From Trebouxia sp. TZW2008 (lineage: Eukaryota > Chlorophyta > Trebouxiophyceae > Trebouxiales > Trebouxiaceae): DNA of 64,000 bases. Within the stretch, counting starts at the first letter, position 1. Each line of letters opens with the position of its first letter. Shown piece after piece: positions 7,901-63,400 of this stretch. The stretch is taken from the NCBI GenBank assembly GCA_002118135.1, contig BDIU01000313.1, forward strand, positions 1 through 64,000, in the 5' to 3' direction. Made by a program: the position numbers and the translations under genes. The notes below the pieces were generated by a model. That model searched no databases, was not told the origin of the DNA, and was given only the letters and a program-made list of their open reading frames with translations.

Positions 7901-10125
7901 GTGGACATGGTGGATCCTGTCATTGCTGCTGATGGGAGCACCTATGAGAAAACTGAAATTGAGCAGTGGCTCAGTTGATCAGCCATGCAGAGGACATGTG
8001 CAGGGCATGTTGCTGGCTGTGCAAGCGACAATACATCAGCATGCCACCGAACGAGCCATCATCAGCCCATCTAGGCAATACACAGCCTACAGCACTAGGC
8101 GCTGGTGGCACTAGGCACTAGTGGCACTAAGCACTAGGCACTTGCTGACTCCCCCAGGCCAAAAAGGACGTTGGCCAGCAGAGGGCGTTACAAACTACCG
8201 AGCTTCTCTGGACATTCGCTGTTTGTCCAGGTTTGCCAGCAGCTTGACAGCAGACATGTGCTGTATTGACGACATTCAAGGCATTAGAACATGGCCCTGC
8301 TTGGCTCAAAAGCTTTTGACATTATGCCACATCAACAGTATATAGACAAACTGCTGTCATTGTCTCCAGACATGCTCAACATTGCCTTTCCTTTCACAGG
8401 CAAGCAGCACTGGAAGCTCTGCAGACTGTGCTGGACGCCTTCTCAAGTGAAGACCACTTTGAGGCTGTGGCAAAGACCTTGTTGCACAACCCTGCAGTTT
8501 AAACAGCTGTCATTGCCTCTACACATGCTCAACACAACCTTCTGCTTGGACAGGCAAGCGGCATTGGAAGCTTTGCAGACTGTGCTGGAAGCCTTCTCAA
8601 GTGAGGACCATTTTGAGGCTGTGGCAAAACCCCTGCTGGTCAGCCCTGCCCAGCACGTTCAGGCTGCAACATCCTCCTCAGTTGAGCTGCGCAAAGAAGC
8701 CATCCCTGTGTCTTTGTTAGCTCACCTGCAAGCATGCCACATGTCAATTGGGCAGGCATGTCTGCAAGTGAATGCTTGCTTTGTCATGACAGACACGCCT
8801 GAGGACAGGTGCATACGACACAAAACGCATGTGGTGTTATGTGGAGTATGCATCAAGGCATCCAATGCATGATGCAGCCTTGCAGAGTTGAAGCTACTTT
8901 AGTCGATGCTCTCATGAAGCAATGCGTTGCAGGCTTGACAACTTTGTTGGCAAATTGCAATTTTCATGCTGGACATAAGCGCATGCGACAAATGGAATAC
9001 AGCGCAGTTGTGATCGTGATTAACTTGACAGATGGTGGCAGCTGACCTGATGCAATGGGCATGCTTTTTATTTGCTGCATTCATGACAGGCTGCTCATAT
9101 TGTCCTATGCTTGCTTTCAGGTGCCAGCACCCAAGCGGGACCTGTTTCCGTTCATGTAGACGATGGCCCAGGTGAAAACTGGTTTGGACAAGCACAAACT
9201 GCACCATGCATGGTCACTGTCTTCTTTGCTTTTGTGTGTGTGTTCAACCAGGCCAACTGCACTTTTGATATTTTGACTTGATAGCAAACCTATTTAAGCA
9301 CTGCTGCAAGTTTCACAGGCTCTTGCTCTGTCTTTGTTTTGGTCAAGTGACGCGGCCGCAATGTTTTTGTCCATATTGCTGACAGCATCTGTAACAAGCT
9401 GCTCTGTGTTACTCCAGAATACCCTGCAATTGGTTGAGTTTGATAACACAGAGCAGTTCGTTACAGCATCAAAGGTGCCGTTAGCATCAGGGTGTCAATA
9501 GCATCATCCGCCAATTGCAAAAACTGGCTTGAAGGTAGCTGTGAAAGTAATGATAGGTGCATATCCTTGCAATGAATTCAGGTGGCATATAGTGTTGATT
9601 GACTGTTGAATGCACTTGAAATGGTGGACTGCGAAACAAATGAACCGTCACTCAAACCATTTACGGTGCCAAGGAATCGGTGGGGTCAGCTGAATGTGGT
9701 AGCTATTGAGAAAGGCTTGGCTGCTTCACAACACATTCTGGAGAGCATTCTGCACGGCAACAGGGACAGCTACCCTGCATGCAGAGGCGGCTGGACCTGC
9801 ACCAGCTATACTAGCACTCCCATCCACATTTGGGTTGCCCGAAAACCAGGTAAATGGCTTCAATATACAATGTGCATTGTATGCAGGTTGGTTCGTTGGA
9901 AGTGCAGTTCTTGAGCCTCTATGTGTGTCTTTCTTGTGCTATGGCTGCCACAGCTAAAGCTTTTATTACAATTTTCTTGCATAATGAGTTTTTTTTCTAC
10001 CTTTACCCCATTAGGACAGGCACAATCCTGGCTGCACTGTCGCAGGTGCTAGACCCAAACAAGCATTGGCCTATCCCACACAACAAAGCTTTTTGAGTCA
10101 GATGTGGCGGACCCTTGTGGGGTAA
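7901..10125 (+). CDS. U-box domain protein fragment with helical-repeat exons
   Basis: After a TTGGCAG acceptor, bases 7901-7972 encode the second half of a U-box (MVDPVIAADGSTYEKTEIEQW). The DPV-x-AADG-x-TYE core is diagnostic. U-box proteins act as E3 ubiquitin ligases or as the U-box of related factors. Downstream exons near 8400-8750 encode an Ala/Leu-rich helical repeat (ALEALQTVLEAFSSEDHFE), present twice. A small exon at about 9121-9171 and a last exon from about 10015 with a stop near 10125 read in frame with a preceding exon ending at about 9849. The first half of the U-box is not found, and the link from the U-box to the later exons is inference. The gene may be decayed or chimeric. 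Confidence 0.4.
8088..8150 (+). repeat. Short degenerate tandem repeat (CACTAGGC type)
   Basis: The words AGCACTAGGC, GGCACTAGG, GGCACTAGTGG and AGCACTAGGC follow one another within about 60 bp. It is probably intronic. Confidence 0.65.
8372..8660 (+). repeat. Tandem exon duplication, two copies (U-box gene)
   Basis: The segment at about 8372-8500 (TGCTCAACATTGCC... exon ...GCAAAGACC) is copied at about 8527-8640, a period of about 153 bp. Each copy carries intron end, CAGG acceptor and exon. Copy 1 runs into a TAA at about 8500 in this frame; copy 2 continues open for about 45 more codons. Confidence 0.8.
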
Positions 10126-10383
10126 AGCTTGCTTCATTCTGCAGTTGAGCATGACTGCTACAATGTCACGTAGTGGCCATTACTTGGCATTCAGTACGAT
10201 CTGTGGGCCTAAAATGACATCAGGTTCACCCTGCCACAATGGGGTCAAACCTTTTCACTTCAGGTTTGTTATATACAAGTGCAAGGACTTGATGCACAAA
10301 TAGGCTCTTCTTGGAGTGGGAGCATGTATCTGTATAGTGTGGACAACTTACTATTGTTGACCCCAAAGCTCTTCACAGAGGGC

Positions 10384-11046
10384 CTAATGTAACGATGCGT
10401 TACAATCTATGACAAAAACATGGCTAATGCTGTGACTCATTGCAGCCGACAGGCTAAGATCTGCCCTATCAACCACTGGTGTATACTCTACACCTCCTGC
10501 TCGCGCATCTAAGCTCTTTCTTGCATTTGCATTCTCGCGCGGTGCATGTCCGTATGTCAATACAAATTGATGTCTCGGGCCGCTCACCTGGCAAACCCCT
10601 AACTGGTTGAGCCGCGCTCTAGCTTGCAAACTTCTTAGCTGATCATTGAAACACCACTGGTGTCAACACCAAGTGCTTCACATTCAGCCTTCTGTTTGGG
10701 CTTTAATTGTGCTTGTATAGGTTGTCAAGCTGGTGACAAGCTGTTGATATAGATGTATATATATATACATACAGCACTGACCATTTGCTACCAGCTGCAT
10801 ACCTTGGAGCCTGATCTCTGAATTAGGTGTGCGTTTTCTGTTCACAGAAGAGCAAACATTCAGATACTGTCTGAAATGTGCTGTCCATTGTTGTTGCCTG
10901 ACACTTGCTGCTGCTGATTTGCCACTTCTGAATCCTGTATCTCGCTCACCAGTAGGCTTGGCATCTACGTATTGCCTCCTTCTACGTAGACATAGATTTT
11001 CAAGTTCGCTTCTTGACTTCTCCGCTAATTCACCGACTGCAGACAT
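10384..11046 (-). CDS. Small unknown protein divergent from methyltransferase
   Basis: An ATG at 11046 opens a frame encoding a basic, coding-like N-terminus (MSAVGELAEKSRSELENLCL, then an arginine cluster). A second open stretch, at about 10629-10384 with a donor-like GTGAGC inside, could be the next exon and ends at a stop at 10384. No domain is recognised. The start lies in a CpG-rich island shared with the methyltransferase that begins at 11082 on the other strand, so only about 35 bp separate the two start codons. The exon chain is uncertain. Confidence 0.35.
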
Positions 11047-11081
11047 CCATCGCGGCGAGGCAAAAGCACAGATGAGTCACC

Positions 11082-14000
11082 ATGACTACGACCCAACACA
11101 TCAGCTTAAGGCACAGACACAGACAGAACCACAATCGATGCGAGACCCGCTGTGCAGACGGACCGATGTCGATCGCAAAACAGATCGGCTTTGCTGTTGC
11201 AGCTGTAGGCGGTTCTGTGATCCTTTGGCGGTACCTGACGAGCGCACGGTCCGGAGTTCCACTTGCAGATGGTTACGACGACTTGACCGGTGAGACTGCA
11301 TTCACAGCCTAAGATGCCATGTAGCCATATATGATGCTGGTGCGCTTGAAGTTGCTTCGCGACATTGAGCGGTTCTGCACGCTTTGCGCAGTGTGTGCTG
11401 CACCGAGTGATGCGGTCAGCTGACGTACAGTCTACATGCATATGCAGGCCCGGTTTCGTTTTCCGCTAGGGTCATAGCAGGTGTGCCTCATCCTGATACG
11501 ATTGCCGCACTCGCTATGGTTTGCTGGGCTCTCTGGGATGGTCGTCGAGCTGGACTTCTGCTGTTGCTTTTGCAGCGTACAGGGCGGTTGAGACAAAGGA
11601 AGTCGATGCCCTCTTTCAAGATGGGATGGCGGAAGATTTGGCAGGGCCAGCAGCCATGCGACAAGTAAGATACACCTCCTCTTGTACGCTGCAGACAACG
11701 CGCTGCTTCCCAAGAGGCATAGCACCGAGCTCATGGTCTGTGCAAATTTTAAGCTTATAAGCCTTGCTCGAAACAGGCCACGACAGCCTGCTGTGGGCCT
11801 GGATGCATCTCTCTTTGGCTCGCCGCTACAGCACGTCAGTCAGCATCTGCCACCACAATTGGCAAGAAAATCCAATTTGTTTTGTGGTCAAGCAAAGCAA
11901 GAACAACCTAAAACTTCAAAACCTGCTTGCGCTTATAAGTACTGTGAACGCAGCTGTTTGTGTTGCTGTAGGCATACGTAGAGCTGGCCAGCAAGAAGGT
12001 GAATGCTCACAGCAACGGTCACAGCAGTGGTGACATAAGTATGCAGCCTGTCCTGGAGCAGAAGTCACACAAGCAGCAAGCACAGCGGCAATACTGCGTC
12101 ACAAGATTTGCTTTGAGGACAAAACTCATTGATGACAAGATTCTTGAAGCGCTGCATGAGCACAGGATGTCAGAACATCAGCTTCTGCCAGTGAAGCAGG
12201 TTGTGGTGCTGGGAGCTGGCATGGATACAAGACCATGGAGATTGCCATTGCCAGAAGGTGATCATATGTGGCATGCATTAGGCTGAATGTGTGCTATATT
12301 CAATCTCTGGTGTCTCATACAATCAGAGAGACCAACAATTTACATGTCACAAGACTTGCATTGCTTACTGCTGCAATGTTGCACGCTCTGTTCGAGTGAA
12401 TTTGCAGTACTAGCTTTCAAGCCTGCTCATTGACTTGTCACAAGGCATGTACCGTATAGTGAGAATGACCGCAGTCAAGCTTTGAGCTGTAGTGCATGCC
12501 ACCCCTTGATGTACAGACTACAATCAGCAGCACGGCAACAGCTTGAGTTAGCGCCACTCCTGTTGTGCACTTCCTCTGCTGCACAGCTTGGCTTCATAAT
12601 GGGTTCTGATCAATAGTGAATTCTGATAAATAGTGGGTTCTGATCGATGGTGGATTCTGATCAGCATGGCTCAGACTGATAGCTTGCAACGCCAGCAAGC
12701 TGTAGAGGCTGTGCCATCATGAATTCTTCAGCAGTTTGGAAAACAACAATGCCCTGGAGATAAGTTGGCCAGACATGAAGCATCACATGCAGGTGTGAAA
12801 TGGTTCGAGGTGGACATGCCTGATGTCTTGGCAGCAAAAAACAAGGGCTTGCAGCGTGCAAATGCCCAAACATCGCGTGAGCAACAAGGCTGCACACACC
12901 AGTTGCAGGCTGAAAGGTTCAGCAATTTCTCTGCTGACTTGAATCAGAGGCAAGCTTCAGTGCACTTTTCTGCAGCTATGATGCATGGCGACTGCTAGCA
13001 CTATTCAGCAAGATGTGATACTACACAGTGGTACTGATGATATCCAACACTGTGACAGTGTATGCATTTATACATGGATCATGTGTTTATTCATGGATAA
13101 CCAACCTCTGAATCCCTAAAGGGTGCTGTGCTAAGCAAGCTGTCACAGCTTTTCTGTGCTCTGTGACCTCATCATTCACGTGTGAGAGTGTGACGTAGTG
13201 TTACCACATGACATCCATGGCACTGATGGTGCCAGGGAAAAGGTCCCTGGTTCAATTCTAGCATGCCGAGTCATTAGAGTCAGATGCATTTTGGTTGTCA
13301 ATTGAATGCGCATGTCATGTGGCAGTCCTCAGTCCTTGTGAGGAATAATCTGTGCACGTGGTCTACTATTGCGCCCTGAAAGCACACATCATTTGCGTCG
13401 CATTGCTGCTTCCCTGTATGAAGCAGCACCGGCTACTTTATGTGACACTGCTGGAGCTTTGATGACTTCGTTTCTGAGTGCACGGCGGCGTTGAGACTAT
13501 GTTTGCATGCACAGGGATTGCATCACAACACTCACTGCCAAGGGCTGGTCCAGCAGTGATGTCCCAGTGTGGCTGGTGAAAGGTCATCCATGAAACTAAC
13601 CCAGGACGCATCTGAACAGCTGCTGACAGACTCCTGTGGGTGTTTGTGCATAAGTCAAGACTCTCATGTGCAGGGATTGGATCACAAAGCTCACTGCTAA
13701 GCGCTGGCCCAGGGGTCAGCCTACACTGTGGCTGGCAGAACACCTTCTCGTGAAACTGACCCAGGATGCATCTGAACAGCTGCTGACGGACTTGTGCACA
13801 TGGCTGCTGTGTGCAGGGATTGGATCACAAAGCTCACTGCAGAGGCTGGTCCAGTGGTGAACCCACAGTGTGACTGGGGTACAGTTCTCTTGTATCTGAC
13901 CCAAGATGCAACTGAACAGCTGCTGACAGACTTCTGTGCATGATAACTTGAGGCTGCTGTGTGCAGGGGTTGGATCACAAAGCTTACAGCAAAGGGCTGG

Positions 14001-15641
14001 TTTAGTGGTGAGTCCACATTGTGGCTGGCAGAAGGCCTTCTCATGTATCTGAGCCAGAACCCGTCTGAGCAGCTGCTGACAGCCTCTGTACATGATGAGT
14101 CATGGCTGCTGTGCGCAGGGATTGGATCACACACCTCATTGCAAAGGGCTGGTCTTAGTGGTGACCCACAGTGTGGCTGGTAGAAGGTTCCCCCATGAAA
14201 CTAACCCAGGACGCATCTGAACAGCTGCTGACAGACTCCTGTGGCTATTTGTGCATGATTAGTCACGGCTATTGTGTGCAGGGATTGGATCACAAAGCTC
14301 GTTGCAAAGGGCTGGTCCAGGAGTGAGCCTACACTGTGGCTGGCAGAATCCTTTTGATGAAACTAACCCAGGAAGCATCTGAACAGCTGCTGACAGACTT
14401 GTGCACATGATAACTTAACGCTGCTGTGTGCAGGGATTGGATCACAAAGCTCACTACAAAGGACTGGTCCAGTGATGAGCCTACAGTGTGGCTGGCAGAA
14501 GGCCTTCTCATGTATCTGACCCAGGACGCATCTGAACAGCTGCTGACAGACATGGCTGGTGAGAGTCTGCACAGTCTGATTTGCTGTGTCATGACTGCCT
14601 CACTCTGCTGGGCAAGGCTGCCAAAGACTTGCCCTTACATGTCTGCGCATTGTGTCAGGGTCTTGTCATTGGTGTCCTGTTGTCAGTGTGTTGAGGTCAA
14701 TGTACAGGCTTGAGCTAAATGTGCTTTTGAGACTCAAAGGTCACTTAGGCATGAGAGTATCTGCGACACCACTCACACCTAAGCTGATGCATATGCCGCA
14801 CAATTCCGCACACAGAGTGTAGTGGTTACAGTCGACGATGCTGAGGCTGCTGCATCTGTATCAAGCTGAATCCTGACTGAAGCTGTGCTGTAAGTTGCCG
14901 ACCATGAGTGCCAAGTCAAGCAAAACTTGACGTTTCAAGTGTGGGATGACTACCTGAAAACTGAAAAGCTAAATGTGCTTTTACAAGGCTGCTACAAGGC
15001 TGCATGTGCAGACCCACATGAACGCATGATTGTCAGTGTAACTTTTTTGTGTACTGGTTCAGTGTACAGGCTTGAGCTTTGTATGAATGTCTCAACACAC
15101 TCACTGCTGCACGTGCAGAGAACTCTGCAAAGGGCAGCGTCTTGCTGGCGCAGTTATTCCGCGCTTCTGCAAAGCAATTCAGTGAAGACTACTACAAGAG
15201 CAATGGGAACTCACAACTGCAGGAGTTGCATAACACCTTCAAGGCTTATGTACCAGATGATTATGAGAAGGTGAGACACATCATTAGACGCATGACATCT
15301 GCAATGACACTGTGCACGGCCAGATTTGTCTGCTGTACAGCCAAATTTGTCTGCTGTACTCAAGTGTGTGACTTCATTCCAACCTCGTAATTTGTGGCAT
15401 GTACGGTATGCCAATGTCTGATGGTCTCTATCTTGGTTATGTTCGTTGCTTACACATGGCTTGAGGTGCAATGCTGCTGAACGATTCTGTCCTGGTGCAG
15501 TACCTCAAGAAGTATGGATGGGCAGTGCAAACAGGGTACACAAATGCTGAGCTGAACAAAGTTGTGGCACCTCATCTTGAAGGCGATGACGACTTTGCCA
15601 GCGGCAACAATGCTCTGTATGTGGAGGCCTTCTCAATGTAA
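11082..15641 (+). CDS. SAM-dependent methyltransferase, COG3315/TIGR00027 type
   Basis: This is probably an O- or carboxyl-methyltransferase of the leucine carboxyl methyltransferase-like family; the substrate is unknown. Exon 1 (11082-11289) includes a hydrophobic anchor (IGFAVAAVGGSVILWRYL). Later exons match the family in order: WTSAVAFAAYRAVETKEVDA with LFQDGMAEDLAG (to about 11667), then TRFALRTKLIDD and the SAM motif VVVLGAGMDTRPWRLP (about 11972-12258), then VKWFEVDMPDVLA (about 12792-12890). Next comes the DW...WLAEGLLMYL exon (array at 13514-14550). The last exons carry SAKGSVLLAQLF (about 15118-15270) and KKYGWAVQTGYTNAEL (about 15500-15641), ending in a stop. The first part of the WTSAV exon has an unresolved frame. 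The oddity is seven tandem copies of one exon. The family is common in actinobacteria, so ancient transfer is possible. Confidence 0.8.
12598..12668 (+). repeat. 17-bp minisatellite, four copies
   Basis: TTCTGATCAATAGTGAA, TTCTGATAAATAGTGGG, TTCTGATCGATGGTGGA and a partial fourth unit lie in the methyltransferase intron before the VKWFEVDMPDVLA exon. Confidence 0.85.
13514..14560 (+). repeat. Seven-copy tandem exon array in methyltransferase gene
   Basis: An exon of about 115 bp with its intron flanks is repeated seven times. The conserved GGATTG or GGTTGG start of each copy lies near 13514, 13673, 13816, 13966, 14118, 14281 and 14433 (period 143-163 bp). Every copy begins after a TG(C/T)(A/G)CAG-like acceptor and ends near GAACAGCTGCTGACAG. 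Copies 4 and 7 keep the canonical WLAEGLLMYL reading. Copy 2 reads WLAEHLLVKL. Copies 1, 3, 5 and 6 carry indels or lost residues in the motif (copy 1: WLVKGH; copy 3: a TGA in place of TGG). Only copy 7 runs on into TDMAG and a GTGAG donor. Confidence 0.92.
15314..15360 (+). repeat. 21-bp direct repeat, two copies
   Basis: CCAGATTTGTCTGCTGTACAG is followed at once by CCAAATTTGTCTGCTGTACTC, within an intron near the 3' end of the methyltransferase gene. Confidence 0.8.
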
Positions 15642-16008
15642 CTTGCTTAACTTTCCCTGGCCTTCCTTGAGAACCCAATTTATACGCAAATGGATGACCC
15701 TTTCCCCTCCCTGCTGTCCAGTACCCATGGCCCATGCTGTTGCTCATTGTGCAATTTGGAAAGTTCTAATAGCAGATGTTCATTTTGTCATGTAACGTGC
15801 AGATGATTTTCTTGTCTGCAGCCTGCACCTTCGGATGTGTTGTGCAGACTTGTACAGTGAACAGGGCGTAGCGTTTGTTCAGCGTCATTGCAATAACGCA
15901 GTCCACTGGCTTTGGCACAAGCACTTTCAGCAATACTCAAGACTGCAAAGGTACCGAAGAAGCAGGTGCAAGCAGGATGCATCTGTGTTGGTCATATGTA
16001 GAGAAGTG
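15642..16008. other. No supported gene
   Basis: This is the spacer after the methyltransferase stop. TGTAA, the usual polyadenylation motif of green algae, overlaps the stop at about 15638 and recurs at about 15792. Both are possible but unproven 3'-end signals. Confidence 0.3.
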
Positions 16009-16696: not shown

Positions 16697-19600
16697 ATGC
16701 CATCGGTAAGCCCTTCTCCAGGTTCAGCGTCGCCATGTAGCCGCCTGAGCCGCTGGCGCTGACTGTGCACTTCGTGAGCAGGCAGCAGACAAAAAGCCAG
16801 ACCCTGATAAGGATGTCATGCTGCGGGTCGAATGCATGTCATCTCGTAGTCTCAAGGTGAGCATTGTTCTGCTGTCAACAGCCACCATTCCATCCTCACC
16901 TTCACCATGCCTGAGTTGACATGACATTGCTTGTTACAGCATACACAACTGTGCAAGTGAGCTGTGCAGACTTCAGCCCTTCTTTCAGCATGCACAACTG
17001 TGCGAGTCAGCTGTGCAAAGTACAGCCTCTTCTCTGCATCTTGCACTGTTAATGCACAAAAGCGATGGAGCCAATGTCTTGCTGCAAGCCTCAGTCGTCT
17101 CATCAATGCTGTGCAGATTCTCATTTTCCAAGGCAATGCTGTTCGGTTGATATGCTTTGTCCTGCTGCTGCTCTTCATTGTTTTGGAGGCGACTCACCAT
17201 GCTGCCAATGGAAACAAGAGACTAGTCCTGGTAGCATCAGCAGTGATTGGCGCCTTAGTCTCTGCTGCACTTTTGGTGCTGGCATGTCTTCTGCTGCACA
17301 CCCTGGTGCAATTACACAAGCAAAAGAAGCACTGGTAAGCAATGCCTGTGACTTTTACAATTGTGCATTGGCATTGCGCTTATATTACAGCAAGTTGTGG
17401 TCTACTGTGCAAGTAGATACATTTGCTGTAAGCCTGGCCACAGTTTGTCTACGCCTGGCAGCTGCTGTGTTTCCTCTACATATTTCGCGCTGTTGCATCC
17501 TACTTGAGTCATAATTTGCAAGGCAATTTGACTGACCAAACATGAAGACAAATTTGTCTTGCAAAGCTGTGAGGCATAAGTGCCCGCACACAGCTGCTCT
17601 GCATCTTGTTGAGTATATTGCCATTCATTTGCTCAAGTTGCACTCAAGACAGGCTCAGCAGGCCCAGCTAGGTATCTACTGGAGCAACCATCTGTTCCAA
17701 TTTGGTCCTGTGCTGTGAAGTACATGCTACACACTTCTGCTGATTGCAGGACGCTCAGACGGCAACGATTGATAGTGCATATTGGCTTGTCAATTGGGTT
17801 TGTGGTGAGGCCTTTAAGTTGATTGATTGCTGAATGTATTGGTGATCAAGTCATCTCCAGCTCACAATGTTGCAAGCTTGTTGATGAGCACATGATGCCT
17901 GAAGCGACCGCGCCAATGCTGTTTTGTCATGACAAAATGATCAGTTAACCCAGCAAGCAACAGCAAATGCAAGTCCCACTTTGCATGTGGTGTGCAGTTT
18001 ATGGCCAGCCTGCTCTGGATGTCAGAAAACATCTATGCTGCGTTGCAGCATAGAAAATGTCACGACCTGTCCAGCTACTGCAGATGGGCTCAGCCAATTG
18101 TGTGGACCATGCTCAACTGTGTAAGCATTCACACACCCCATTATCTACCTGTGCTTATCAAAGCAGTTGCAGTTGCAGCTCGTCCGCTCTGCTGGCTTGA
18201 CAACAATGATGACAACAATGACATCTGCTGCATTGTAAGGTCCACTTGACCATGAGCATCATCATTTATTGTATCGCTTACGGTTGCAGCGTTTCCTGTG
18301 GTCAAGCTGCATGCCATGTGACTGAGCAGAATGCTGGTCTGACACGTTGTCATGTCTTGCGGACTGGCTATGTCTCTAGCCGTGTAGAATGACGTTCTGA
18401 CATATTTATTTTGGCCGTGCAGTGGCTGTGCCTCCATTTGCAGAAAACAATGTTTTGACATATTGATTTTGGTGGTGCAGTGGTTATGTCTCCAGTTGCT
18501 GCTAGCTCATGCAGCCACAGTGTGGACTGACGCCAAAGGCCAGCCAGTGCAACACTTCCTGTGTCTACGTAAGTCCTTGCCAGTGTTTGCCATCACATTA
18601 GTATTAGCAATGGTACCTGCATCTTCAATTGTTGCCACCACTCACGAGTCCAAAGCCGCCTACCTGTGATCAAGAATGTGCCATTTTGTTTTCAACCTGT
18701 ATATAGGGCTTGCTGTATCAGCTTCCTGAGGATTGTACACTTTGTACACTGCAAGCTCTGAATATACAGCATGTTGAAGCTTGAACATTAGCTTGTTGAA
18801 TTGCTGAGGCAAACACCATGGGCATGCAAGCTATGATTCTCATACAATATGCAAACAGCCACGATCGAGGATCAGCCGCTGTCCCATTTGATAGACCTGT
18901 TTGACAAGCTTTGATCACAATATGGCATGCTGCGCACAGCAGCTGTCATGCGTCACAGGCAATGCTTCTGCAAAGTCCCTGAATCATTCTGTGGCTGTCT
19001 AGTGTATTCACAGGAAGGTAGCGTGTAGATCACATTGTTGCAATTGTTCTCATTTAAGCAATGCCAGTGCCGGCATCATTGAGCCATGTGCTGCAGCGTT
19101 GACCAATTACCTCTGCAGAATGTTACAGATCCTCTAAGTTGGACTGCCTGACACAAATGTGTGGAGGCAGCTCATTGCTTGGTACGCATCTGGTTGCATC
19201 ATGGACCCATTAGAATGCATGTAAGCAATGATAGTGAAGAATTTGAACTGCAGGTCCACAGTCTGTGGAGCGTGCCAAGTACAGACCTGCATTGGTGTTT
19301 GATGCGCCCTGGCTTATACACCTGCCCAAGCTCATTCCCTGGTGGGTTGCTATAATAATAATGATAATAAGAGTTACATGTTCCAGCATATACTGCTAGG
19401 TATGTGTGGCACAAGTCCTATCTCGCCAGGGGGTTGCTACCACCCCATGCATCTGTATTCCTCAGCATCAATGTTGTTGAGATCTTTACACATTCCAGCA
19501 GATGTGCTAGGTGTGTGTGACCCAAGTCCTGTCTCGCCAGGCAGGCTTGTTCTGAGCACCTTGGTAATGCATGCCTCAGCATTGGTCAGTATCAGTTCAG

Positions 19601-22600
19601 GTTTTCTGAGGCAAAGTGTGATCTTGCAAGCTTGTTCTGTGGTTGGTGACAACAGCTTGTCTCGCGAACTGTGCACTATCTGCTCAGCTCTCAATTTGTC
19701 TGTTTTGTGATTTACATTGTTTGCAAGTGTTTGATAACAGGTGACTTCATGGTCCAAAATGCATGAGATGCTGAGTAGCATCTGCTGTGTGTTGGGCAGC
19801 ACAATGCGCTTTCTTGATCAGGAGAATCCTGATTCACCGCAATTCATTCGTCCATTGCTGTAATAGATTAAAATGCTGAGCAAAGGGCATCCTCCAAGGC
19901 CACCTTGCCGTAGTGTTTGATACTCTGCACGCTTTGCTGTTGTTGACAAACGATTGTACAACCATCTTAGGGTCATGTTTCTGGAAAATAGCTGCACTCG
20001 GAAGCTTTGGTCATAATCAGAGATGGTTTCAGGCACTGCTGTCATGCTCTGTGCTCTGCCTGCCCAGAGTGCGCGAGTGTCAGGCAGTTGATAACATTCA
20101 AATGTCCCTAGTTGCTGGGTTACACAGCCTGCCTGGCAAGCGTGTGCTACCGAATTAGTTAACAAGGGCGTGAGTGGCTTGGTTGGTGTCATGCAGGCTT
20201 ATTGTAGAGACAAGCATCGTACTGGAGATCATCTCACAGCCACGTGGTAAGAGCCACTCTCAACAGTATACTATCACATGTCTCTACACGCAGGCATCTG
20301 ATGTGTGTGTCGCAAACTATGCAACATTATTGTCATCAGTCGCATGTATTCTGATGAAATTCTGAAAGCCAGTCAGGTGCATACAGAAGCAAAATGCTGC
20401 CTCAAATTTAATCTGCCAAAGCCATTTCGTGTTGACGCCAATGAAGCCTTGACCTGCTCAAAGCGCTTGTTGAGTCATCAAGACAGATGCAAGCCATGAC
20501 TGATTGTGCAGGCCAACTAGCAGCATGTCAAGCAGATATTGCTTATGACTACAGTTCCTGCCACTACAACCACCCCTACAGATGGAACAAGATCTTGTCT
20601 TACATTGGTCTGGGAACTTACCTGTGTTACCACTTTTGGTACGTGAGGACTGGCCGAAAGTACCACAGCATGATACCATACAACTCCTTCAGGTACCAAA
20701 GCATGCCTGTTACCTGTTGTTTTTCACCTGTTGCCTAGTGCCTGTTGCGCGTTGCCCACTCCCTGTTGCCTGTTGCCTATTGCCCATTGCCTATTGCCTA
20801 TTGCCTATTGCCTTTTGCCTATTGCCCCTTGCGTTTTGCCTGTTGCTTGATGCCTGTTGCCTGTGGACCATGGCCTACGGCCTGTTGCCTGTCGTCTGTC
20901 ATCTGTTGCTTGCCGCCTGTTGCTCAATGCCTGTTGCCTGTTGCCTGTTGCCTGTTGCCTGTTGCCTGTTGCCTGTTGCCTGTTGCCTGTTGCTTTGTGC
21001 ACAACAAGAGCTGCATGAAGTACTTGGCAACCAGACGCACACCCTACTTTGTGCAAAGCATTGCCATGTTTGGTGAATTCATCACAATTGTTGCATGCTG
21101 CTACACTCGATGCAACAAACTCTTGATATAGGGACAGTGCAATAGGGACTGCTCCTTGCACTCAGACTGCAATGGTAGTCCTCAGTAAGGATAAATAAAA
21201 TGCATTGACTCTTTTCTTGGTATTTATACACAGGGAATACTGTGCATGCTGCTTGGTCTACAGTCTGAGTCGTGGTGTGCATGCTTGCAGGATTGCAAAC
21301 TGTCTGCTGCGCACCCAGGAAGGAAATGTGATTGGCATATCCAGCTATCTGCTGGTCTGTGCAGCTTGGATCCTGACAATTGTCTTCAGGCCTTCAGCCT
21401 GCATACCCTGCTCTCAAGCTTCCACTCACATTGTGTGTAAGTCTCCCTTCCTGCTTTGTCCTGGATTCAACAGTGATGATACTGATAGATCACATGTTCC
21501 AGCACATATGCTAAGTGTGTGGGGCAATAGTCCTGTTTCGGCAGGTGGGCTTGCTTTCAACGTCACGGTAAGGATATGTGGTGTTCTAACTGTCAAAATT
21601 TGGATAAAACAAGCAAATGTGCTAGACTTGATGCGCTTCATCTGCATGATCTGCTTTTGGTCTGCTGCTTCCTGCGCGGCATTAAGAGTTGCAAGCTATG
21701 CAAACTCACGCAAGCATCGGTGCTCTGCAGTGATCCTGGCAGCTGCCCGTCATGCTGTTGTCCATGTTGCCTTTTCAAGCCCCAAGATTGGTCTCTAGCA
21801 AGTCTCAATCATTTGAGATGGAAATCATGTCTCTGCCTGCACTGTGCTAGACTTGATGAGTTTCATCTGCATGCTTTGCTGCTGATTTGCTTTTTTTGGG
21901 CAGACATCACAGTGCTCTCAAGCTTTCAGTCACATTATTTTTGAATCCCCCATGCCTGCACTGATAATCTTCATCTTTACAACTTCTAGCGCATGTGCTG
22001 ACTGTTGGCGAAGTCTCCCGTGCTGCACTGTATGGGGCTTGATCAGCTTCATCTGCATGCTCTCTTCTTCTTCTGCTTCTTCCTGCATGCTATCAAGAGT
22101 TGCAAGCTATGCAACTTCACGCAAGCATTGGTGCTCTGCAGTGATCCTGGCAGCAGCTCGCCTTGCTGTTGTCCATGTTCAGCCCCAAGATTGGTCTCTA
22201 GCAAGTTTCAACCATTTAAGATGGACATCATGTCTCTGCCTGTACTGTGCTAGATTTGATGAGCTTCACCTGCACGCTTGGCTGTTCAAATGCTTGTTCC
22301 TGCATGTCATCAAGAGTTACAAGCTACCTCAACCTGACTCAAGCAATGATGCTCTGCAGTGATCCTGGCAGCTGCCCGTCTTGCTGTCGTCCATTTTGCC
22401 TTTTTCAGCCCCAAGATTGGATGTGCTGACGACCCAGTCTTTCTTCAGGTCAGCAAATCACCATACCTATACAAAAATTATCTTTGTATTGACTGCTTTA
22501 ACTACCGAGAAATGTGTCCTTACATCAAATTGTCCTTACTCAGAGGGACGACTGCAGTTAGAATGCAGTGATTGGTTACCAATAGCGTCGTCCTTATGTT

Positions 22601-25600
22601 GAGATTGTCCTTACATTGAGTGTCCTTACAAAGAGAGTTTATTGCAACTCAAAACACAAGAGGTAATACATGAATCTAAAGCACCCACCCTCAGTGTTTC
22701 TTCAGATCAGTGAGACACAATCAATACTTCTCAACACGCGATACACAATACATGAGTGCTAATCAGTGACATGTGACACACAAGTCTTTCAAAGCATTCA
22801 TCACGCAAGTGGAGAGTGTGATGATGCACTGTTTCAGATCTCCTTCTTGGTCCTGTTGTTGTTAGTACAACACAATTGCATGCCTGAATGCTGAGGGTGC
22901 AGGAATGGTTGCAATTTTTTGCCTGGACAGAAAGCACCAAAGAAGCAAAGCATGCAGAGAGACAAGCGCACATGCCACTGCAGCAGCGGCATTTGCTTGA
23001 GGGCAAACCCATCTTCTGCTTCGAGACTGCCATCAAGCTTCTGTACTGGTGTGGCTTTGTGTATGAGCATGATGAGGTACGCATTTGTTGTGTGCCAGTC
23101 AGGCCACTGCTTCATTGTAAACCTATGAACGGTTCATGTTCAGACCTTTCTGGTTTTGTTGATTGCAAACCTATGAACGGTTCATGTCTGGAACTTTCTG
23201 ATCTTATTGCGCAAAAACAGACATACTGACCGTGTTGCCTTGTGCTTTGACTTTAGCTTGCATCCTTGACCCCATACACAGCAAGCCAAGAGCTGAAGCT
23301 GAGGCTGTTGCGGAAGCTGAAACTGGCACTGACAACTGCACCAAGTCTATTTCACTTATAGCACTTTATACTGGCTTGATAGAGCGTGACGTCGAATGTG
23401 CCTGCAAGGGAGAGCAAAATCGAAGCTGTCACAGACAACTGCTCTCAGCCCGTTCAGCCTACAGCAGCTTTGAGCTGGCTAAAGACAGACAGCAGACGGT
23501 TCTAGCACTGACTGTCAGGTTGGCGTTGAAGCATGGAACTGAATGACTCACACTGCAATTGGCTGCAGGGGCAAAAAAGGGTGACGCTGTCAGAGACAAC
23601 TGCCCTCACTCTGTTCACACTTACAGCATTTGAGCTGTCACGCTGCACAGCAGCCGACGTGAAGTGCCTGACATTGCGTGAGCTTGCAGGGTAGGAAAAA
23701 GCTAAAACTGTCAGAGACAACTGCCCTCAGTCTGTTCAACTTACAGCACTTTGAGCTGGTGCGCTGCACAGCAGCTAATGTGAAGTGCCTGGTGGCCTGG
23801 AGCGATGAGAGCCTTGTTGTAGCCTTCAGAGGAACTGCCAATTTCAGCAATATCCTTGCAGACATCAGAGTGGGGCTGCCCTTCCTGCCTGATATCAGCC
23901 ATGCATATATAATGGTGCCATGTAACATGTTGCCATATATTGTGTTGCCATAGATTGTGTTGCCATATGTTGTGTTGCCATGTTATAAGTTGTCACAGCT
24001 CCTACATGCCACATAGCCGTGCTGTGCTGCCTTCTGCATTTATTTGCAACTTCAAAGCTCCTTTGCTCAAGAGCCAGAGAATCTAGTATGCCATATGCGT
24101 CATGCAATATGCACTAGGTACCCAAGCACAATAGCATACCAGCAACATCTTTTGCTACAACTGTTGCAATTTGACTCAACGATCAGCATCACGTCAGGGT
24201 CAGGGAGAATGGCAGAGCCAGCAGTACTGGTGTTTTTTCATTGCAGCCATACAGCTGGTCCTCGCTGGCATGCACAGTCTACCACTGATGTCAACACAAA
24301 GCCTTCACGTGACACATATGACATGGAAACTATGCAGCAAGATGCTGAGTGGTGACCAAGCATGACAATATATGCTGGTGCAGGCGTGGATGGTGAAAGG
24401 CCCAGAAGGCGGCCTCTCCAGCCTGCACAATCCTCTCTTCCACAGCCGCCCCAAAGTGCATTCGGGCTTCCACGCAGCCTGGGAGCTCAGCGGGCTGAAG
24501 GACGCTGTCATGCAGCTCATCAAGCTCCACGTTGCACCTGAGGCTGCTGCCAAAATGCATGTCTTCCTCACAGGTGAAAATCTTGCTACGGTCATTTAAC
24601 CTCAAATTTCAGCTATGAAGAGGCATGTCATGCAGCTCTCCACACTCCTTGTTGCAATTGAGGCTGCTGCCAACATGCATGTCTTCCTCACAGGTGAAAT
24701 CTTGCAACTGTCATTTAACCTCAAATTGCAACTATCAATGGGCATGCCATGCAGCTCATCAAACTCCTTATTGCACCTGAGGCTGCTGCCAACATGCGTG
24801 TCTTCCTCACAGGTGAAAGTTCTGCACCTGCAGCTGTCCAGAGGCCTGTCAATACACAGATAAGGCATTGCATCTGCAGCTCAATGCGTTGCAGGACGCT
24901 GTCATGCAGCTCATTAGGCTCCACTTTACACCTGAAGCTGCTGCCATTCTGCATGTCTTTCTCACAGGTGAACAATTGCACAACAGATAACAGGTCAACA
25001 ATCAAACTTTGTGCTGTTGTGACAGCATCTGTCCCCATCAACTACCCTGAAAGCTGCACTTTGTCATGGTGGGTGGGTGGGTGAGTGAGTGGATGAATGA
25101 ATGAACAATTGATAGGGTGAATGAAAGAGGCTTGATTACGCAGGACACAGCGTAGGCGGGGCAATGGCCAATTTGGCAGCTGTGGACACCTTCAAGGGCT
25201 TCCTTGAAGGTGTACACTGCGCCTAGAGTGGGCAACCAGGTCCACATGCACCACAATCCGGTGTATGCAGTCAGTGAATGATGCAGGACACAGCCTAGGC
25301 GGTGCAATGGCCAATTTGGCAGATGTGGACATCATCATCATGATGCAGTGGCCTTCTTGAAAGTGTGCACTGTTGAAGCTCTAGGGTTTTCTCCCTTGCA
25401 CACAACCCATAGCTGCGATATAGGTCACAGCCTGGGTGGGGCAATGGCCAATTTGGCGGCTGTGGACATTGTCAACATGATGCAATGGGCGCCCTTGAAG
25501 GTGTGCACTGTTGGGGTGCCTCAAGTGGGCAACTATGCCTATGCTAACATGTACAACAAGCTGGCATATATAGCAAATGAGTGTATGAAACTGCATTGAT

Positions 25601-27841: not shown

Positions 27842-28335
27842 TAGAGCAGGAGGGGAGCTTCAGGATATCTGCTAGCACTCAGCCAACAGCAGGCAACTCA
27901 CAGGCAACCAAGTCTGATGCAGACAGCCAATTGAGGCACTCACACAAGGGCTCAGCATTTCATCAAAGAGCATGGGACGCTTCATGACATCTTTGAGCAT
28001 GCGTTCAAAGCCAGTCAACCCACAGGCGACTGGCTGTGATGCAGACAGCCAACGCAAGCAGCCAGGCTTGGCAAAGCTTAGCAATCCATTATAGAGCGCG
28101 AAGAGCTTTGTAACAACTGTTAGCAGGCAAAAGCTCAGCGTCCCGCCCTGTTAGCATGCTTTCAGAGCCAGCCAATCCACAGACAAATGGCTCTGATGAA
28201 GACAGCCAACGCAAGCAGCCAGACTTGGCAAAGCTCAGCACGCCATGATAGAGCGTGGGAGCTTTGTGACAGCTGATAGCATGCAGTCAGAGTCGAACAA
28301 ACCACAAGCAATCAATCCTGATGCAGGCAGCCAAG
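27690..28335 (+). repeat. Degenerate coding-type tandem repeat at lipase 3' end
   Basis: A unit of about 130-180 bp is repeated about four times. Its landmarks are CTCAGCATTCCGCCCAGGAG, GAGCATGC(A/G)TTCA, AGCCAACCCACAG, GATGCAGACAGCCA and AAGCAGCCAG(A/G)CTTGGCAAAGCT. The first copy is the open C-terminal tail ending in a TGA at 27839. Later copies have stops (ATGATAGAG, TTATAGAGC) and are probably 3'-untranslated or decayed. Confidence 0.85.
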
Positions 28336-28620
28336 TGTGCTTTGGACAAAGGTTTGCATTCAGAGGCAGAAGACCCACAGGCAGTCAATTCTGAAGCAGA
28401 CAGCTGATTGCATGTTCCTAGCAAGGAATCGCGGTCTGACACTGAATCCTTGCAGCAAAACGCAACTGCACAAACAGGGAGGCCAGCCAAAGCGCACACT
28501 GTGCCATCGACCTCGAATGCGCTTGACAAAGCAAAACCCGCTCTACAGCAAGTTTTGTACACAGCAGGAGTCCTGACGGTGTTTTTTGTACAGAAGTCGA
28601 TGCCTTGCTCAAGCATTTGA

Positions 28621-37340: not shown

Positions 37341-45127
<7,787 letters not shown>

Positions 45128-45197: not shown

Positions 45198-45226
<29 letters not shown>
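45198..45226 (+). repeat. (TA)n microsatellite after RecQ
   Basis: About 14 TA units start about 70 bp after the RecQ stop codon. Confidence 0.95.
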
Positions 45227-45227
<1 letters not shown>

Positions 45228-45229
<2 letters not shown>

Positions 45230-54430: not shown

Positions 54431-57400
54431 CTAAGGCATGGGCTGCTTTGCTCTACTTTGCGCTATAAGCTGCTGCAACTGCTGTGTCTGTTTCTGCAAA
54501 GTTGTCAAAGACTGTAAAAAACCATTCTGATGACGCTTCACAGACGCTGGAAGCGCGGGTTCAGACTCTGGGATTTTTCGCTTGCTAACACCCTGCACTG
54601 TTGTCTTCAGCACATCAGCGTACGATGTGCTCAGAGGATCACTACGGTCATGTGTATGTCTAGCATCTTGCCGTACAGCAGCTGCATACGATGTAGACGT
54701 CAATGGCATGCTCTCTGGAACGCTGCTACCCTGTTGTCTATGGCCATTGGCAAAAGGCATGCTTTCTTGCCAGTCAGATGTCAGAGCAACACTACTGGCA
54801 GGGTCTTCAAGACGTGCTGAAGATGGCAGCCGCAGTGTGGATGGTGCAGAAGGTAACAGGGGAGGGAGATCTGCCTTTGCTGACATGACAACAGGCGGCA
54901 GTGACTGCTGCTGTATGGCACGGATGCGGCTGTGCATGGCTGCAGCTAGCGTCTGCTGCCAGGAGCTGCCGGAAGCCTTGATGCCCAGATAGTGCTGGAC
55001 ATAGATAGGTACAGCTGCAGCACACCATACCAAGTCAGCTCTATCCTTGCCACAGACACAGCACTAACTTGGAATGATGTGCTAGGTGCGTGGGGTCTGA
55101 GTCCTGTCTTGTCAAAGCACTGAAGCCAACAGTGTGAGATATCAACCTGAACAATGACAACAATCAAAAAAGAACAAAGCTCATGACAGTACAACATCGC
55201 ATGTTTGACCATACACATGCCACCAGCACCAAGACTTCGCAACTGGCCTCAAAGACGGCGTGCACTTCCTTTGTAAGATTTGCCTTCTGCCACGAGCGTG
55301 CTTGGATGAGCAAGGGCAAGATGGTCGATGCTAGCTAGCAGCTGCAGTTCAATGAGCTGCTTGAGCACTTTGCTGAGGGGCATTGGCGACAAGGTCAACG
55401 CCAGTGAATACAATCAGTGTTTGTGGGCACAGTTGCAGCTCAATGCACTGCTTACACACCTTGCTGAGGGGCGCTGCCAAGGGAGCTGGACATAGCAGGC
55501 AGGCACAGTGAGGACAGGGCGCCCTCAACCCGGCTGAGGGAGGAAGGACCCCACCAGCCCTCTGGCAGGGTGGCATCTATGGCAGCCAGCTCTGGCGGCG
55601 GCCACCCACCGCGGTCAACAGCTGCTGCGGCGGCTTCACTGTGACACAGCATTAGCAGACGGTGAAAAGGTTGAGTCAGGACACGGTCAGCTAATCATGC
55701 ATGATCTTGATCTTGAATGTGTCAATGTATCAGGGCGCCCTTGACACGGCTCCGGCAGGGAAGACTCAACCAGCCCTACAACAAGGTGGCATCAATGGCA
55801 ACCAGCAGTGGCAGTGACCACCCCTGTTGGTCAACAGCTGCTGCAGCGGCTTCACCATGACTCAGCATTTGCGTTTGAGGCTGAGTTAGAGTGACGTGTC
55901 AGCTTACGGCCAAATTATATGCATGATATTGATTGGGTGAAGGCTTGGACAGCAAGAACCACAGAGGCGCCAGTGTCAGTTTGACTGGACTCAAATTGAG
56001 CAATGAGCCGGTCTGAACGCTGATTTTGGGCGGCATTGACTCACATTCTGCCATGAATACAGTTTGCAAGCAGCCCACCGGCTGTTGCCAACCCTGTTCA
56101 TGCATGTTTCCATCACAAGTCAAGTTGGGCATGCTTGGGGAAGTCATCAAACCTGACCACACATGCAATGACGCATATCATCATTCACATGAATGCGTTG
56201 CAAGCTAGCAACAAAACTGGGGCAAGCTGTTTACTAACACATGTTGCGGAGCTTGTGCCTACAAGTTTTGGAGACGTTCTTGCTACAGTCTGCAAGCATC
56301 AATGCTCAAGATCAAGCAGCATAGGCTTGTCAGTTGACACTTCGACTTCTTGTGGATGGCACAACCAATACCTTGATGGCACGAAGGGCTTACTTGATCT
56401 GCTGCCAGGCTCTGACCAGCATTTGATTGAAGGCGCTGACCCAGGCTTGCGGCAACAGGTGGTGGGCAGCTCTTAAAGGCTCAAGCTGTTGCTCCAGCTG
56501 CTGTGACAGCCATTGCTCCAGAGGCAGAGCCTGCATAACCAGTTTTGTGAGCTGCATGAGCTTTCTGCTTGCCACATGCTGATGCTTTTGTGCATTGTGT
56601 TATGTGATGCTGGCGGATACGCCAGCAGCAGGATCAAGGGCAAAGCCTGCATTCTACATGGGTGTCTGAGGTCAAAAGTCTTGGGTGTTGCAGCTTTGTT
56701 AGATTCTAAACATGAAGATTGGACTTGCGACTTCATCAGACAGCCTTCTTTACTTTGTTGAAATATGCTGATCTGTTTGCATTGGCTGGCACAGGTGTAC
56801 ATGCAAGATGGTTCTGCAAACAAAGGTACAGGGAGGCTACGTGCTGACATGAGCTCTAAGAATGACCTGTGAACCACTGACTGGTACATTGTAGCCTTGA
56901 CTTGATCCATATCAAAGGACGATTACCTTGACACAAAGCTGGGCAGCAGCATGGGCTGCAGACCACTTCAAGCCATCACGCAAAGCTGTTCTGGAATAGG
57001 CAGCCTTAAGCTTGGTGGCTTTGAGGTTAGCCTGAGGCTTTGCTAGGCACACTAATGATGTTGCCCTGATGCGCTGCCACAGAGCTCCCAGCTTGCCTGC
57101 ATTTGTGAATGTTTTGTGAAGACTAGGTTCTGTCCAAGACTGTTTGTACGCTGCTGTAAATAACAGCTTGCAGGCCAGGAGCATGGCACCAAGCACCGCA
57201 GTCACTACAGGCTCTCTAATTGCAATTTGACAAGATGGGTGGATGACCAAATTCACATGCTAGGCTGAGGACAGGTAACAAAGATGCGGAGGCTCAGAGT
57301 GCATCTCAATTTGTCAAGCATAGTAAACACAGGTCAAACTGCTTGCAACACTTGAGAATCGCTCAGCATGCAGCAGACTTGTACCTGGCAGAGTGTTGAG

Positions 57401-60400: not shown

Positions 60401-63400
60401 CAGGATTGGCCGTTTGAGGCAGCACAGTCATTGTAGGTGTACAGTCTTACATCAACGTTTTGACAGGACCTCTGTTATTGATGATTGCAGGTAAGTAAGG
60501 GGTGTCCAGCTGATAGAGTTTGTGTGTAGGGTTACCTGGCTTGTGTGTGTCTTGGGCGTATGGGAAGTGGCAGCAGCCTGTGCAACCTGGCTCTGCCTCT
60601 GACGAGGGATGACTCCCGCCCCACTCTGAGGCATACCAGCCTGCCTAGCTTGCAGCATGGTTCCGGAGCTGCCCACCAGGGCCTGCACAGCTGCTGCTGC
60701 AGCTGTCCCCTGATCACTAATGTTTTGTGACTTCACAGGTAGCTGCTGGCGGCACACGCGTTCAGAACGCTGCCTGAAAGCTGCAGCCTGGGATTCAAGC
60801 TTCAACCCCCTGTGTAAGACAATCTGCCAAACGCCTGTGGGGCTTTGCTCTGCCTGCAGACCCGCTTTGCTGAGGAAGTCAAGGGTGTCATCCTCGCTGT
60901 CAAACCACATTGCGTAGGCCAGCTCGCTTACTGGACGAGTCTCAGTGGGCCCTGCAACAGATATGCCTGATTGTCAGACGGGCAAAGCCTCGCTTGCTGT
61001 GACCAATCAGCTGGCGATTGGGGTGCAGCTCTTCAGGCAGGTGCTAGTGAAGCATGGCAGGAGGCAAGTGTATGGTACTGACATCGGGCGTGCTTGAGGC
61101 TAGCAGGTCTTTGTGCTGCCATGACCTGCAGTCTTGCTGGTCTGCAAAGGCCTTATACAGCTTGCTTTGATCCTGTGCCAGGACAGCCTATATGCAACTT
61201 TAAACTGAAACAGTTCTGTGTGCTCAAGCAGTACATTTGATGGCGCACTATGCCCAGGCAGCATCAGCGTCAGAATGCATGCAGTGGCAAGCTGCGGCAG
61301 ATGCATGCATGACATCCAAGATACCATGCTCAATGCCAACTCACCAGCAGCACTCACTGAACGTGTAAGGTACAGGAAGCGCATCTTTGGGAACAGGAAC
61401 TGCAGCCATAGTGCCAGACGATAGGAGGCCTTGTCCACTAGCTTGAAGAAGGCCCAGGGATTGATGTCATTGGCCACTAGACGGTGCAGGCGCAAGGCCA
61501 AGGCAACATAAGGGCTGGGGCTGTATGGCAGGATGTGTTGCTGCAGCAAAATCAACAAACATTTTGTTTTGTGATTGGTACAGCCGGCAAGATGTATGGC
61601 TAAGGCCACATAAGGGCCAGGGCTTATGATAGGATGTGCGTCTGCAGCATAACAAACATGTTGTTTTGCTGTTGGCGACCGGCCGGTGCAGGCGCAAGGC
61701 TAAGGCGCAAGGCTAAGGCCACATAAGGGCTGGGGTTGTACGGCAGGATGTGCCTCTGCAGCAGCGCATTGTCAAGTGCTGTCAGGCAGCATCAGTTGGA
61801 CGGTAGCAAATTGACTGTAAAGACTTCTGGATCTCTTTGTACCATGCCTTAGTGGTGCAAATTGTATGACGCAAATCTGGAACGCAGAGTGTGTTGTAAA
61901 AAGTTGAGCAAACTGTACAATGTTGGCCTATCTGCCAGACAAGTTGACTGCACCCCTTCATTTCAATGCACAGAAGGACTGGCGTATGTAGACGTGCGCT
62001 GTCATGAACAAAGCCAATTTTGCAGCTGACCGATTGCATGACCCTATGATTGCTTGCTTGAACAGCCGCAAAGCACAGACATATGTTTGACAATTGGTAG
62101 CGCTGCATGCAAAATACGATGGGCCCTTGTTCAGATGCGCCAGAAGGCAGGCGCATGCTCTCACCTGAAAGAAAGCTGTAGGGCCATCCTTCTGGCGGGT
62201 GCCCATGAGAAGCATGATGAAGGCGTATGTGTTGAACTCCGCAGCATTGGCGGCAGGCTGGCCTTGCAGCAGTGCCGCTTCATACATGGCGGTCAGCGAG
62301 ATGAGCGTCTGCAAAGGCAACACAGGTGATGTCAGAATGGTTCTGAGTGCTTGTTGTGTGGCACATGCTTGGCCGATAATCAAAATAAAGTTGAATTATA
62401 CACACTTGAGATGATCAATCCTGCTTGGAGCGCATTGCAAATCACAAATATGTCTTTGCATAAGCTTAGAGGGGTCGCATTACATGCCGTAGGTATTCAA
62501 TGGTCAGCAGCTAAAATGCAGTCATATTCAGTGTGAGGCAAGCAAGGCTAGCTTTTGCTGCATACAGGTCATTGCAAAGAGCATTGGTAGGGCCACTTAT
62601 CACCTTGTTGAGCTGCTCTATGACCAAGCCAGGGTGGTAAGACTCTGTGCTGTCTGCAGTGCCGGGGTCACCATGATGACTCATCTCAGCGTCCATGTAG
62701 ATGGCTGTCATTGCATGCTCTTCATACATGTTCATCACCTCTGGACCCTGCGCAACTATGACATTCTGTATGCTCTGCTGAACATAGGGGGAATGGCAGG
62801 AGCATGAGTTGCATGGCAGTTCTAGGATTGCGCTAAGCCAACACAGACTCTGACTTGAATGTATTTCAACTTGATCTCCACTTTAAAGGTGCGTTGATGC
62901 TGAGGGAATGTATGACTTTGTGGATGGAGCGACATGAAGCAGGCATTGATAATGCGATGGTGTGATGACACACTTGGTGCCTAGGGCTTGACTGACTAGA
63001 AGCCTTGCTTGGGGTTCAGGAGTGATATAGTCAGCGCCAACTGTATCTATTGATTCAGCAAGTTATTTAAGCATGAAGGTGATACAGCACCTCCATTCTC
63101 TGCCACGCCATATCCTGGCGGATGCTGCGTTGGCGATCCCAAAGATACATGGACACCCGCCCCAGGCCCAACCTTGGGTCCCCACTGTCCAAGTAGTCCA
63201 TCAGATGCTTCTCTGTGGTTTTGAGCGCTGGTAGTGTGCGGAACATGTTGGGCAGGGCTGCATTGTCTGACATGTTCACCTGTGAGGAGCAGGTCTGTTA
63301 AGCTCTACAAGCTGAACAGCTGATATGTCACAATTCAGTACACTCTGAACATGCACGCACTTTTAGATAAGACTCGCAATGACAAGATGCTGCACATATG

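Follow-up and report, generated by a model that had tools for sequence, protein, structure and literature searches.

Throughout the sampled parts of the genome of the alga Trebouxia sp. TZW2008, short local duplications are dense, lie almost always in direct orientation and are seldom young, and in about eight genes the copies adjoining an exon follow a pattern of one splice junction each. We consider it fairly probable that they are what remains of an earlier wave of short local duplication, after filtering that spared the copies crossing one exon-intron junction. The window, i.e., the whole stretch that was analyzed (64,000 bp of contig BDIU01000313.1), was compared with itself by BLAST in chunks of 10 kb, keeping matches of length ≥50 at a shift of ≥60 under a complexity filter. 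This self-BLAST gave 33 direct pairs, which form 11 arrays and cover 5,851 of the 64,000 bases, with no inverted pair in those 64,000 bases and no pair at all in three dinucleotide shuffles of the window. A diagonal scan found 15 arrays in the window. In 50 kb of Escherichia coli used as a control, the scan gave a single array and the BLAST pipeline none. The tandem copies described by an earlier sequence-only reading are thus real (11 BLAST arrays against none in shuffles, in the self-alignment that it had called for), and the unit lengths (about 100 to 240 bp) and copy numbers (two to seven) that it gave are broadly borne out.

Nor is the window a local oddity. A further 22 stretches of this 68.5-Mb assembly (215,149 bp in all) yielded 61 arrays by BLAST, as against 11 in the 64,000 bp of the window, with 7.3% of the bases in copies; by the diagonal scan, 19 of the 22 stretches contained arrays. 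Local copies at ≥80% identity make up 5.8% of all sampled bases. Direct pairs outnumbered inverted ones 134 to 6 outside the window by BLAST, and the diagonal scan gave 301 direct segments versus 12 inverted, with none in shuffled sequence (one shuffle per piece). With a BLAST search range of 2 kb, no pair was more than 1 kb apart. To this extent the earlier proposal of a genome-wide process is supported: the duplications are short and local, they vary in age, and the broken copies have an intact one next to them. Closeness, shared orientation and shortness place the copies in the class of local short direct duplications (doublets and repair-mediated duplications), a kind of event that is already known; their density and the junction rule look unusual, as judged within one assembly.

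The copied length is mostly 60 to 130 bp, and nearest copies begin about 135 bp from one another. The distances are broad (5 to 95% range, 52 to 230 bp), so no claim of nucleosome-length units is made. Compared with the contiguous head-to-tail units of a minisatellite or simple tandem repeat, 33 of the 93 nearest-copy pairs are contiguous and 60 are spaced. No flank homology was found at 25 of the 41 spacers tested, a test that recovered simulated full homology in 34 of 41; weak homology appeared at the other 16, compared with 3 of 41 for a control flank, which indicates that some of the spaced pairs are tandem copies that have since eroded.

The claim that the data do not support is that the process is ongoing. 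A steady, continuing genome-wide production of short duplications would account for copies of many ages and for one array that is 94% identical over 173 bp, gapless in the diagonal scan. However, steady birth should fill the youngest class most, and only 2 of the 93 nearest copies are <5% divergent, 10 are <10% and 58 fall between 10 and 20%, with a median of 16.3% and a peak at 12 to 20%. If ages were spread uniformly up to 25% divergence, such a shortage of young copies would have a binomial p of 2.6e-6. Part of this deficit could come from assembly collapse. An array of a U-box-like gene in the window (8348..8649, + strand, two copies at a shift of ca. 153) also speaks against an ongoing process. 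Both of its copies recur in a paralogous stretch at another locus (C139), 96.7% identical over 480 bp, so the array must be older than that stretch. We therefore regard continuing duplication as unlikely.

For the window arrays that can be assigned to genes, the working copy at each exon was chosen from frame and splice motifs. The methyltransferase named by the earlier reading, confirmed by a PF04072 match, has one exon in seven copies with a unit of ca. 150 bp (13506..14554, + strand); the last one is intact (14434..14558), is followed by gtgaga and was read as the working exon. The lipase, also confirmed (PF01764), lies on the + strand and contains an array at 23314..23791, where the apparently intact copy is the last by eye. 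Its exon A (24446..24573), read as the working copy, comes first in its array, with the exon end and donor-side copies running downstream (24484..24980), while in the array of exon B (25117..26437) the intact exon (25605..25777), likewise read as the working copy, is preceded by copies of its acceptor side and followed by copies of its donor side. In the RecQ-like gene (+ strand), the exon read as working (40045..40263) is followed by two donor-side copies (exon end and copies, 40154..40719). The naming of this gene stands in part, with a short DEAD-box match (ca. 39034-39120) barely over the cut-off and the remaining motifs recognized by eye. The SAC3 gene, whose identity holds (PF03399), contains an array at 61488..61763 (− strand) in which copies of the acceptor side precede the intact exon. 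The U-box-like gene was named by eye; there, the upstream copy consists of an acceptor-like CAG and the first part of the exon, and then runs into a stop. Four further arrays have no assigned strand: two copies at 19374..19541, where no gene was recognized, three copies at 21618..22420 and five to six at 27679..28404 (both without a Pfam match on the + strand), and two copies at 55515..55872 (without a Pfam match on either strand).

Exon-linked copies follow a rule: those upstream of the working exon have the acceptor and the first part of the exon, and those downstream have its last part, mostly with the donor. Seven genes with eight exons supplied the 20 alignments examined, which cover copies more than 150 bp from the exon (nearer ones are masked together with the self match). 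The acceptor was present in 11 of the 12 upstream alignments and the donor in none, and among the 8 downstream ones the donor was present in 5 and the acceptor in none. None of the 16 alignments testable for both splice sites carried both. This refines the earlier description of exon copies with their splice sites: the exon-linked copies examined are one-site fragments and not complete exons bearing both sites. About eight genes, picked up through recognizable domains, make up the basis of the rule. Two kinase loci (C73 and C130) fit it; their truncated upstream copies were known beforehand, so that the new element in the test was the retained acceptor and the absent donor. At the USP locus, the dead copy has an in-frame stop within the part that matches the working exon. 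A family-match search for exon duplicates listed at least 234 matches (Pkinase, at least 134; UCH, 60; DEAD, at least 40), with at least two real duplicate pairs among the matches listed; a third candidate, C273, turned out to contain no copy. Further Pfam scans of two 10-kb stretches (L024 and L028) found few domains.

Such a placement might arise if duplication were aimed at exons or their edges, with breakpoints at splice junctions. In 12 of 106 cases both copies have TGCAG at their 5' edge, versus 21 of 490 at deeper block positions, GGTGAG occurs at 0.57 per kb inside arrays versus 0.32 outside, and GC content is 52.0% in arrays versus 49.4%; the six BLAST arrays that could be placed in four recognized genes all touch exons. 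GC content and some donor-like words thus lean towards exons. However, the motifs were picked post hoc, the less strict GCAG hardly differs (13 of 106 versus 46 of 490), TTGCAG and GTAAGT are not commoner inside arrays, and several blocks reach far into the intron (RecQ, lipase exon A and kinase C73). Moreover, slower decay of exon copies, when compared with a conserved working exon, would yield the same bias. The data stop short of establishing an exon-specific process, and aiming at exons seems improbable to us. Two other approaches were abandoned: a codon-usage gene finder (a coherent set came from 18 of 71 long ORFs, with scores too weak for 100-bp exons) and a conservation profile around acceptors, which was circular through selection.

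A more specific scenario appears more doubtful still: one bounded, direct-only episode that favored exon edges and was perhaps triggered by DNA breaks from small mobile elements would have given each gene, on average, over one local copy, and would have set much of the intron length with exon scraps. A 170-bp MITE-like repeat is present in the same genome, and 39 of its best 42 copies (among 1,289 candidates) are 84 to 88% identical to that of the window, close to the median of 16% by which the duplications diverge, which makes a mobile-element wave a possible trigger. Since these are the best 42 of 1,289 candidates, and typical copies may be older, we give the scenario little weight.

That both copies are working exons, in tandem or mutually exclusive, is very improbable. 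In its favor, most copies ≥75 bp (47 of 53) have some open frame in either copy, with a random expectation of 44. Against it, the distribution of mismatches over codon positions, tested in 90 arrays, is near chance (chi-square sum of 170 versus a null of 147 ± 15). The phase result says that most pairs are not two constrained exons, while leaving the coding share unfixed and a minority possible, and it does not establish that exons are touched by most arrays. Of the features of functional or mutually exclusive tandem exons, the whole exon with both splice sites was seen in none of the 16 testable alignments and coding constraint on both copies was not seen over the 90 arrays, and the stop in the USP copy points the same way. 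An assembly artifact is hardly credible, given the median difference of 16% between copies, the recurrence of the U-box-like pair at a second locus and the arrays in 19 of 22 sampled stretches.

We infer, then, that a wave of short local direct duplications probably swept this Trebouxia-like nuclear genome in the past. A plausible source is miscopying where DNA stalls or breaks (by slippage, template switching or synthesis-dependent repair), which would leave such a mix of contiguous copies and copies split by unrelated DNA. Within genes, selection would retain the copies that span one exon-intron boundary only. Provided that splicing takes the outermost donor and acceptor, such a copy becomes part of the intron and leaves the messenger as it was. 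The skipped copy would decay as a dead exon fragment, and the intron would be enlarged by scraps of its own exon. The broken exon pieces beside the working exon thus probably lengthen introns and leave the protein unaltered. If this is genome-wide, introns are growing out of their own exon fragments, and every dead copy is a datable splice-site decoy next to the working exon, allowing a direct test of how the spliceosome chooses among near-identical sites. For this important group of lichen algae, the copies would also be a source of error in gene prediction.

No description of such a pattern in a green alga was found among the top-ranked titles and abstract openings of the literature searched, and the word "tandem" is absent from the main text of the Trebouxia and lichen-alga genome papers examined by term. 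The closest known events are the repair-mediated duplications of vertebrates (Pace et al. 2009, PMC2671141). According to the sections of that study used here, these have a median of 147 bp, a maximum of 619 bp and nearby donors (up to 5 kb off), can include exons and splice sites (one exon copy is inverted) and became less active over time; the 824 human events were all detected within transposable elements, and tandem cases (within 50 bp) were left out. Both systems consist of short copies of nearby sequence, some with exon sequence and a splice site, but in Trebouxia the copies are no more than 1 kb apart, one in three is contiguous, they occupy 7.3% of sampled bases and nearly all are direct. 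Doublets, or short paired duplications, and close direct repeats (Thomas et al. 2004 and Achaz et al. 2001, as cited in PMC2671141) are, as presented there, similarly short local direct duplications. Tandem exon duplication, in the portions consulted of Ivanov and Pervouchine 2022 (PMC9013439), also places exon-homologous DNA next to the exon. The exonic nucleotides with an in-gene homologue at ≥80% identity are given there as ca. 2% in human, 0.08% in fly and 0.06% in worm, whereas in Trebouxia 5.8% of all sampled bases are in ≥80% local copies, by different methods, and the copies are mostly one-sided fragments. Finally, in intron gain by tandem genomic duplication, as outlined in the part of PMC4974935 drawn on, a short tandem duplication at splice sites likewise changes intron structure; there a new intron is created, whereas in Trebouxia existing introns have apparently been lengthened.

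The window lies at G000:C297:1-64000, i.e., on contig C297 of an assembly of 68.5 Mb in 527 contigs; for comparison, two published Trebouxia genomes are given as 69.1 and 63.7 Mb, and published genomes of this genus have GC contents of 49.6 to 51.1% (48 to 51% in our sampled stretches). The protein obtained by joining the exons of the methyltransferase gene had as its best named match, over the full length, a Trebouxia sp. C0005 protein (59% identity). These features point to Trebouxia or a near relative as the source. Directly 3' of its exon at 12793-12949 there is apparently a GC donor (gcaagc). Self-BLAST of the window found 11 arrays of short local copies, with 33 direct pairs and no inverted ones, while no pairs were found in three shuffles of the window. 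A diagonal scan, in which every diagonal is scored, recovered 15 arrays in the window and none in one shuffle per piece. In 50 kb of Escherichia coli used as a control, the scan gave one array and BLAST none. Direct segments outnumbered inverted ones by 301 to 12 in the scan of window and sample, some of the direct ones being counted twice in overlapping window chunks. The copies are therefore real.

The sequence-only reading had proposed that the process is genome-wide and ongoing, and the first part holds. We sampled 17 stretches running from base 30,001 onward in evenly numbered contigs (20 were picked, three being too short; one stretch has only 5,149 bases) and five more from long contigs, 22 stretches and 215,149 bp in all. 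They contained 61 BLAST arrays (2.8 per 10 kb, compared to 1.7 in the window), with 15,679 bp (7.3%) in copies, and at least one array was present in 17 of the 22 stretches by BLAST and in 19 by the diagonal scan. Coverage by the latter was 9.5% in the window and 8.6% outside, so on this measure the window does not stand out. Trebouxia gene densities of 204 to 235 per Mb are among the published values, and together with the array density they imply an average above one array per gene.

The ongoing character, on the other hand, was not borne out. Across the 93 diagonal-scan arrays, the median difference between nearest copies is 16.3% of aligned bases; only two of the 93 were below 5%, 10 were below 10%, 58 fell between 10 and 20%, and 25 above. 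If copies arose at a constant rate, the youngest class would be expected to outnumber each of the others, but the share below 5% is smaller than a uniform profile up to 25% would give (p = 2.6e-6). Since this class is nearly empty, duplication has become less active or the assembly lacks near-identical copies. Copies of 92 to 98% identity, which we think assembly collapse is unlikely to delete, are also scarce (4 of 93).

Start-to-start distance between nearest copies has a median of 135 bp (5 to 95% range, 52 to 230), with a median alignment length of 87 bp. Copies were contiguous in 33 of the 93 arrays and separated by a non-aligning stretch in 60. Weak flank homology, as for an eroded tandem unit, was detected in 16 of 41 spacers tested and was absent in 25 (control flank, 3 of 41 positive; simulated full and half homology detected in 34 and 22 of 41, respectively). 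Tandem and spaced copying thus probably both occur. Of the BLAST pairs, 134 were direct and six inverted, and none in the 2-kb search was more than 1 kb apart.

Other repeats were seen as well. A MITE-like repeat of ca. 170 bp with inverted ends, recognized by eye, lies at 22475-22646; among the best 42 of 1,289 first-look candidates, 39 had 84 to 88% identity, and at some places (contigs C237, C182, and C383) two copies are near each other. A dispersed repeat of ca. 1.7 kb (9060-10771) has relatives on contigs C232 (95%), C83, and C269; the copy of the U-box stretch on contig C139 is without it and is interrupted by ca. 3.4 kb of other sequence. Degenerate 7-bp repeats (TGCCTGT / CTATCGC) at 20704-20993 and 26677-26838 are mutually similar. 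In L028, one of the sampled stretches, the C2HC zinc finger (PF13913) matches three times (4718-4786, 5074-5142, and 9093-9167); two matches are inside a local array, and the third shares ca. 11 bases with the end of a different array. A domain may have been multiplied by duplication here.

Working and dead copies were told apart by reading frame and splice motifs. Within the window, the acceptor and the beginning of the exon are found in dead copies 5' of the working exon, and the end of the exon, mostly together with the donor, in dead copies 3' of it. Thus, the methyltransferase has six broken copies with the intact exon last, in RecQ and lipase exon A the intact exon comes first, and lipase exon B is flanked by both types. 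When eight exons from seven genes were compared with the sequence around them, 20 alignments resulted: the 12 upstream ones retained the acceptor in 11 cases and never the donor, and the eight downstream ones the donor in five and never the acceptor. Because the self match is masked in this procedure, copies less than 150 bp away are missed, including that on C130, one of three contigs with kinase loci inspected after the rule had been noted. There and on C73 the acceptor was retained and the donor absent, as the rule expects, the shortened upstream copies being already evident from the profile ranges of the kinase matches; no copy was found at the kinase locus of C273. Copying of an exon or part of it with its splice sites, as first described, is accordingly to be narrowed, in the cases examined, to exon parts with one site, as both were present in none of the 16 testable alignments (an exon end is lacking for USP and for a ribosomal L6-family gene, identified by its PF00347 match, which we take to be RPL9).

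A unit crossing one junction would create two acceptors or two donors; splicing by the outermost pair would leave the messenger unchanged and lengthen the intron, while a whole-exon copy would add protein sequence and be selected against. Duplication might instead be aimed at exons or their edges, with breakpoints at splice junctions, which we regard as unlikely. In its favor, arrays are richer in GC (52.0%, bootstrap 51.4 to 52.7) than the sequence outside them (49.4%), methyltransferase exons and introns having 51.7 and 48.1%, and in GGTGAG (0.57 versus 0.32 per kb); the two copies share TGCAG at their 5' edge in 12 of 106 cases, as against 21 of 490 deeper in the blocks. All six BLAST arrays placeable in four recognized genes touch exons, a count with gene ends unmapped and leaving out the diagonal-scan array at 23111-23209. 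However, TTGCAG and GTAAGT are not enriched in arrays, the looser GCAG has a small edge excess, open frames per 90 bases are alike (2.06 in arrays, 2.04 outside), the codon phase of mismatches is only 1.5 SD over chance, and slow change of the working exon keeps exon copies visible longer.

This kind of event is already known. Repair-mediated local duplications in vertebrates, as described by Pace et al. (PMC2671141), have a median of 147 bp, can take in exons together with splice sites, and have become less active over time. At an identity of 80% or more, local copies account for 16,279 of the 279,149 bp of window and sample (5.8%). The share of exonic nucleotides with a homologue at this identity cut-off is ca. 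2% in human and 0.06 to 0.08% in worm and fly according to Ivanov and Pervouchine (PMC9013439), who cite ca. 10% of animal genes as having tandem exons. By the yardstick of such published figures, obtained by other methods, what seems unusual in this genome is how densely the copies lie, how few of them are young, and the rule of one junction per copy.
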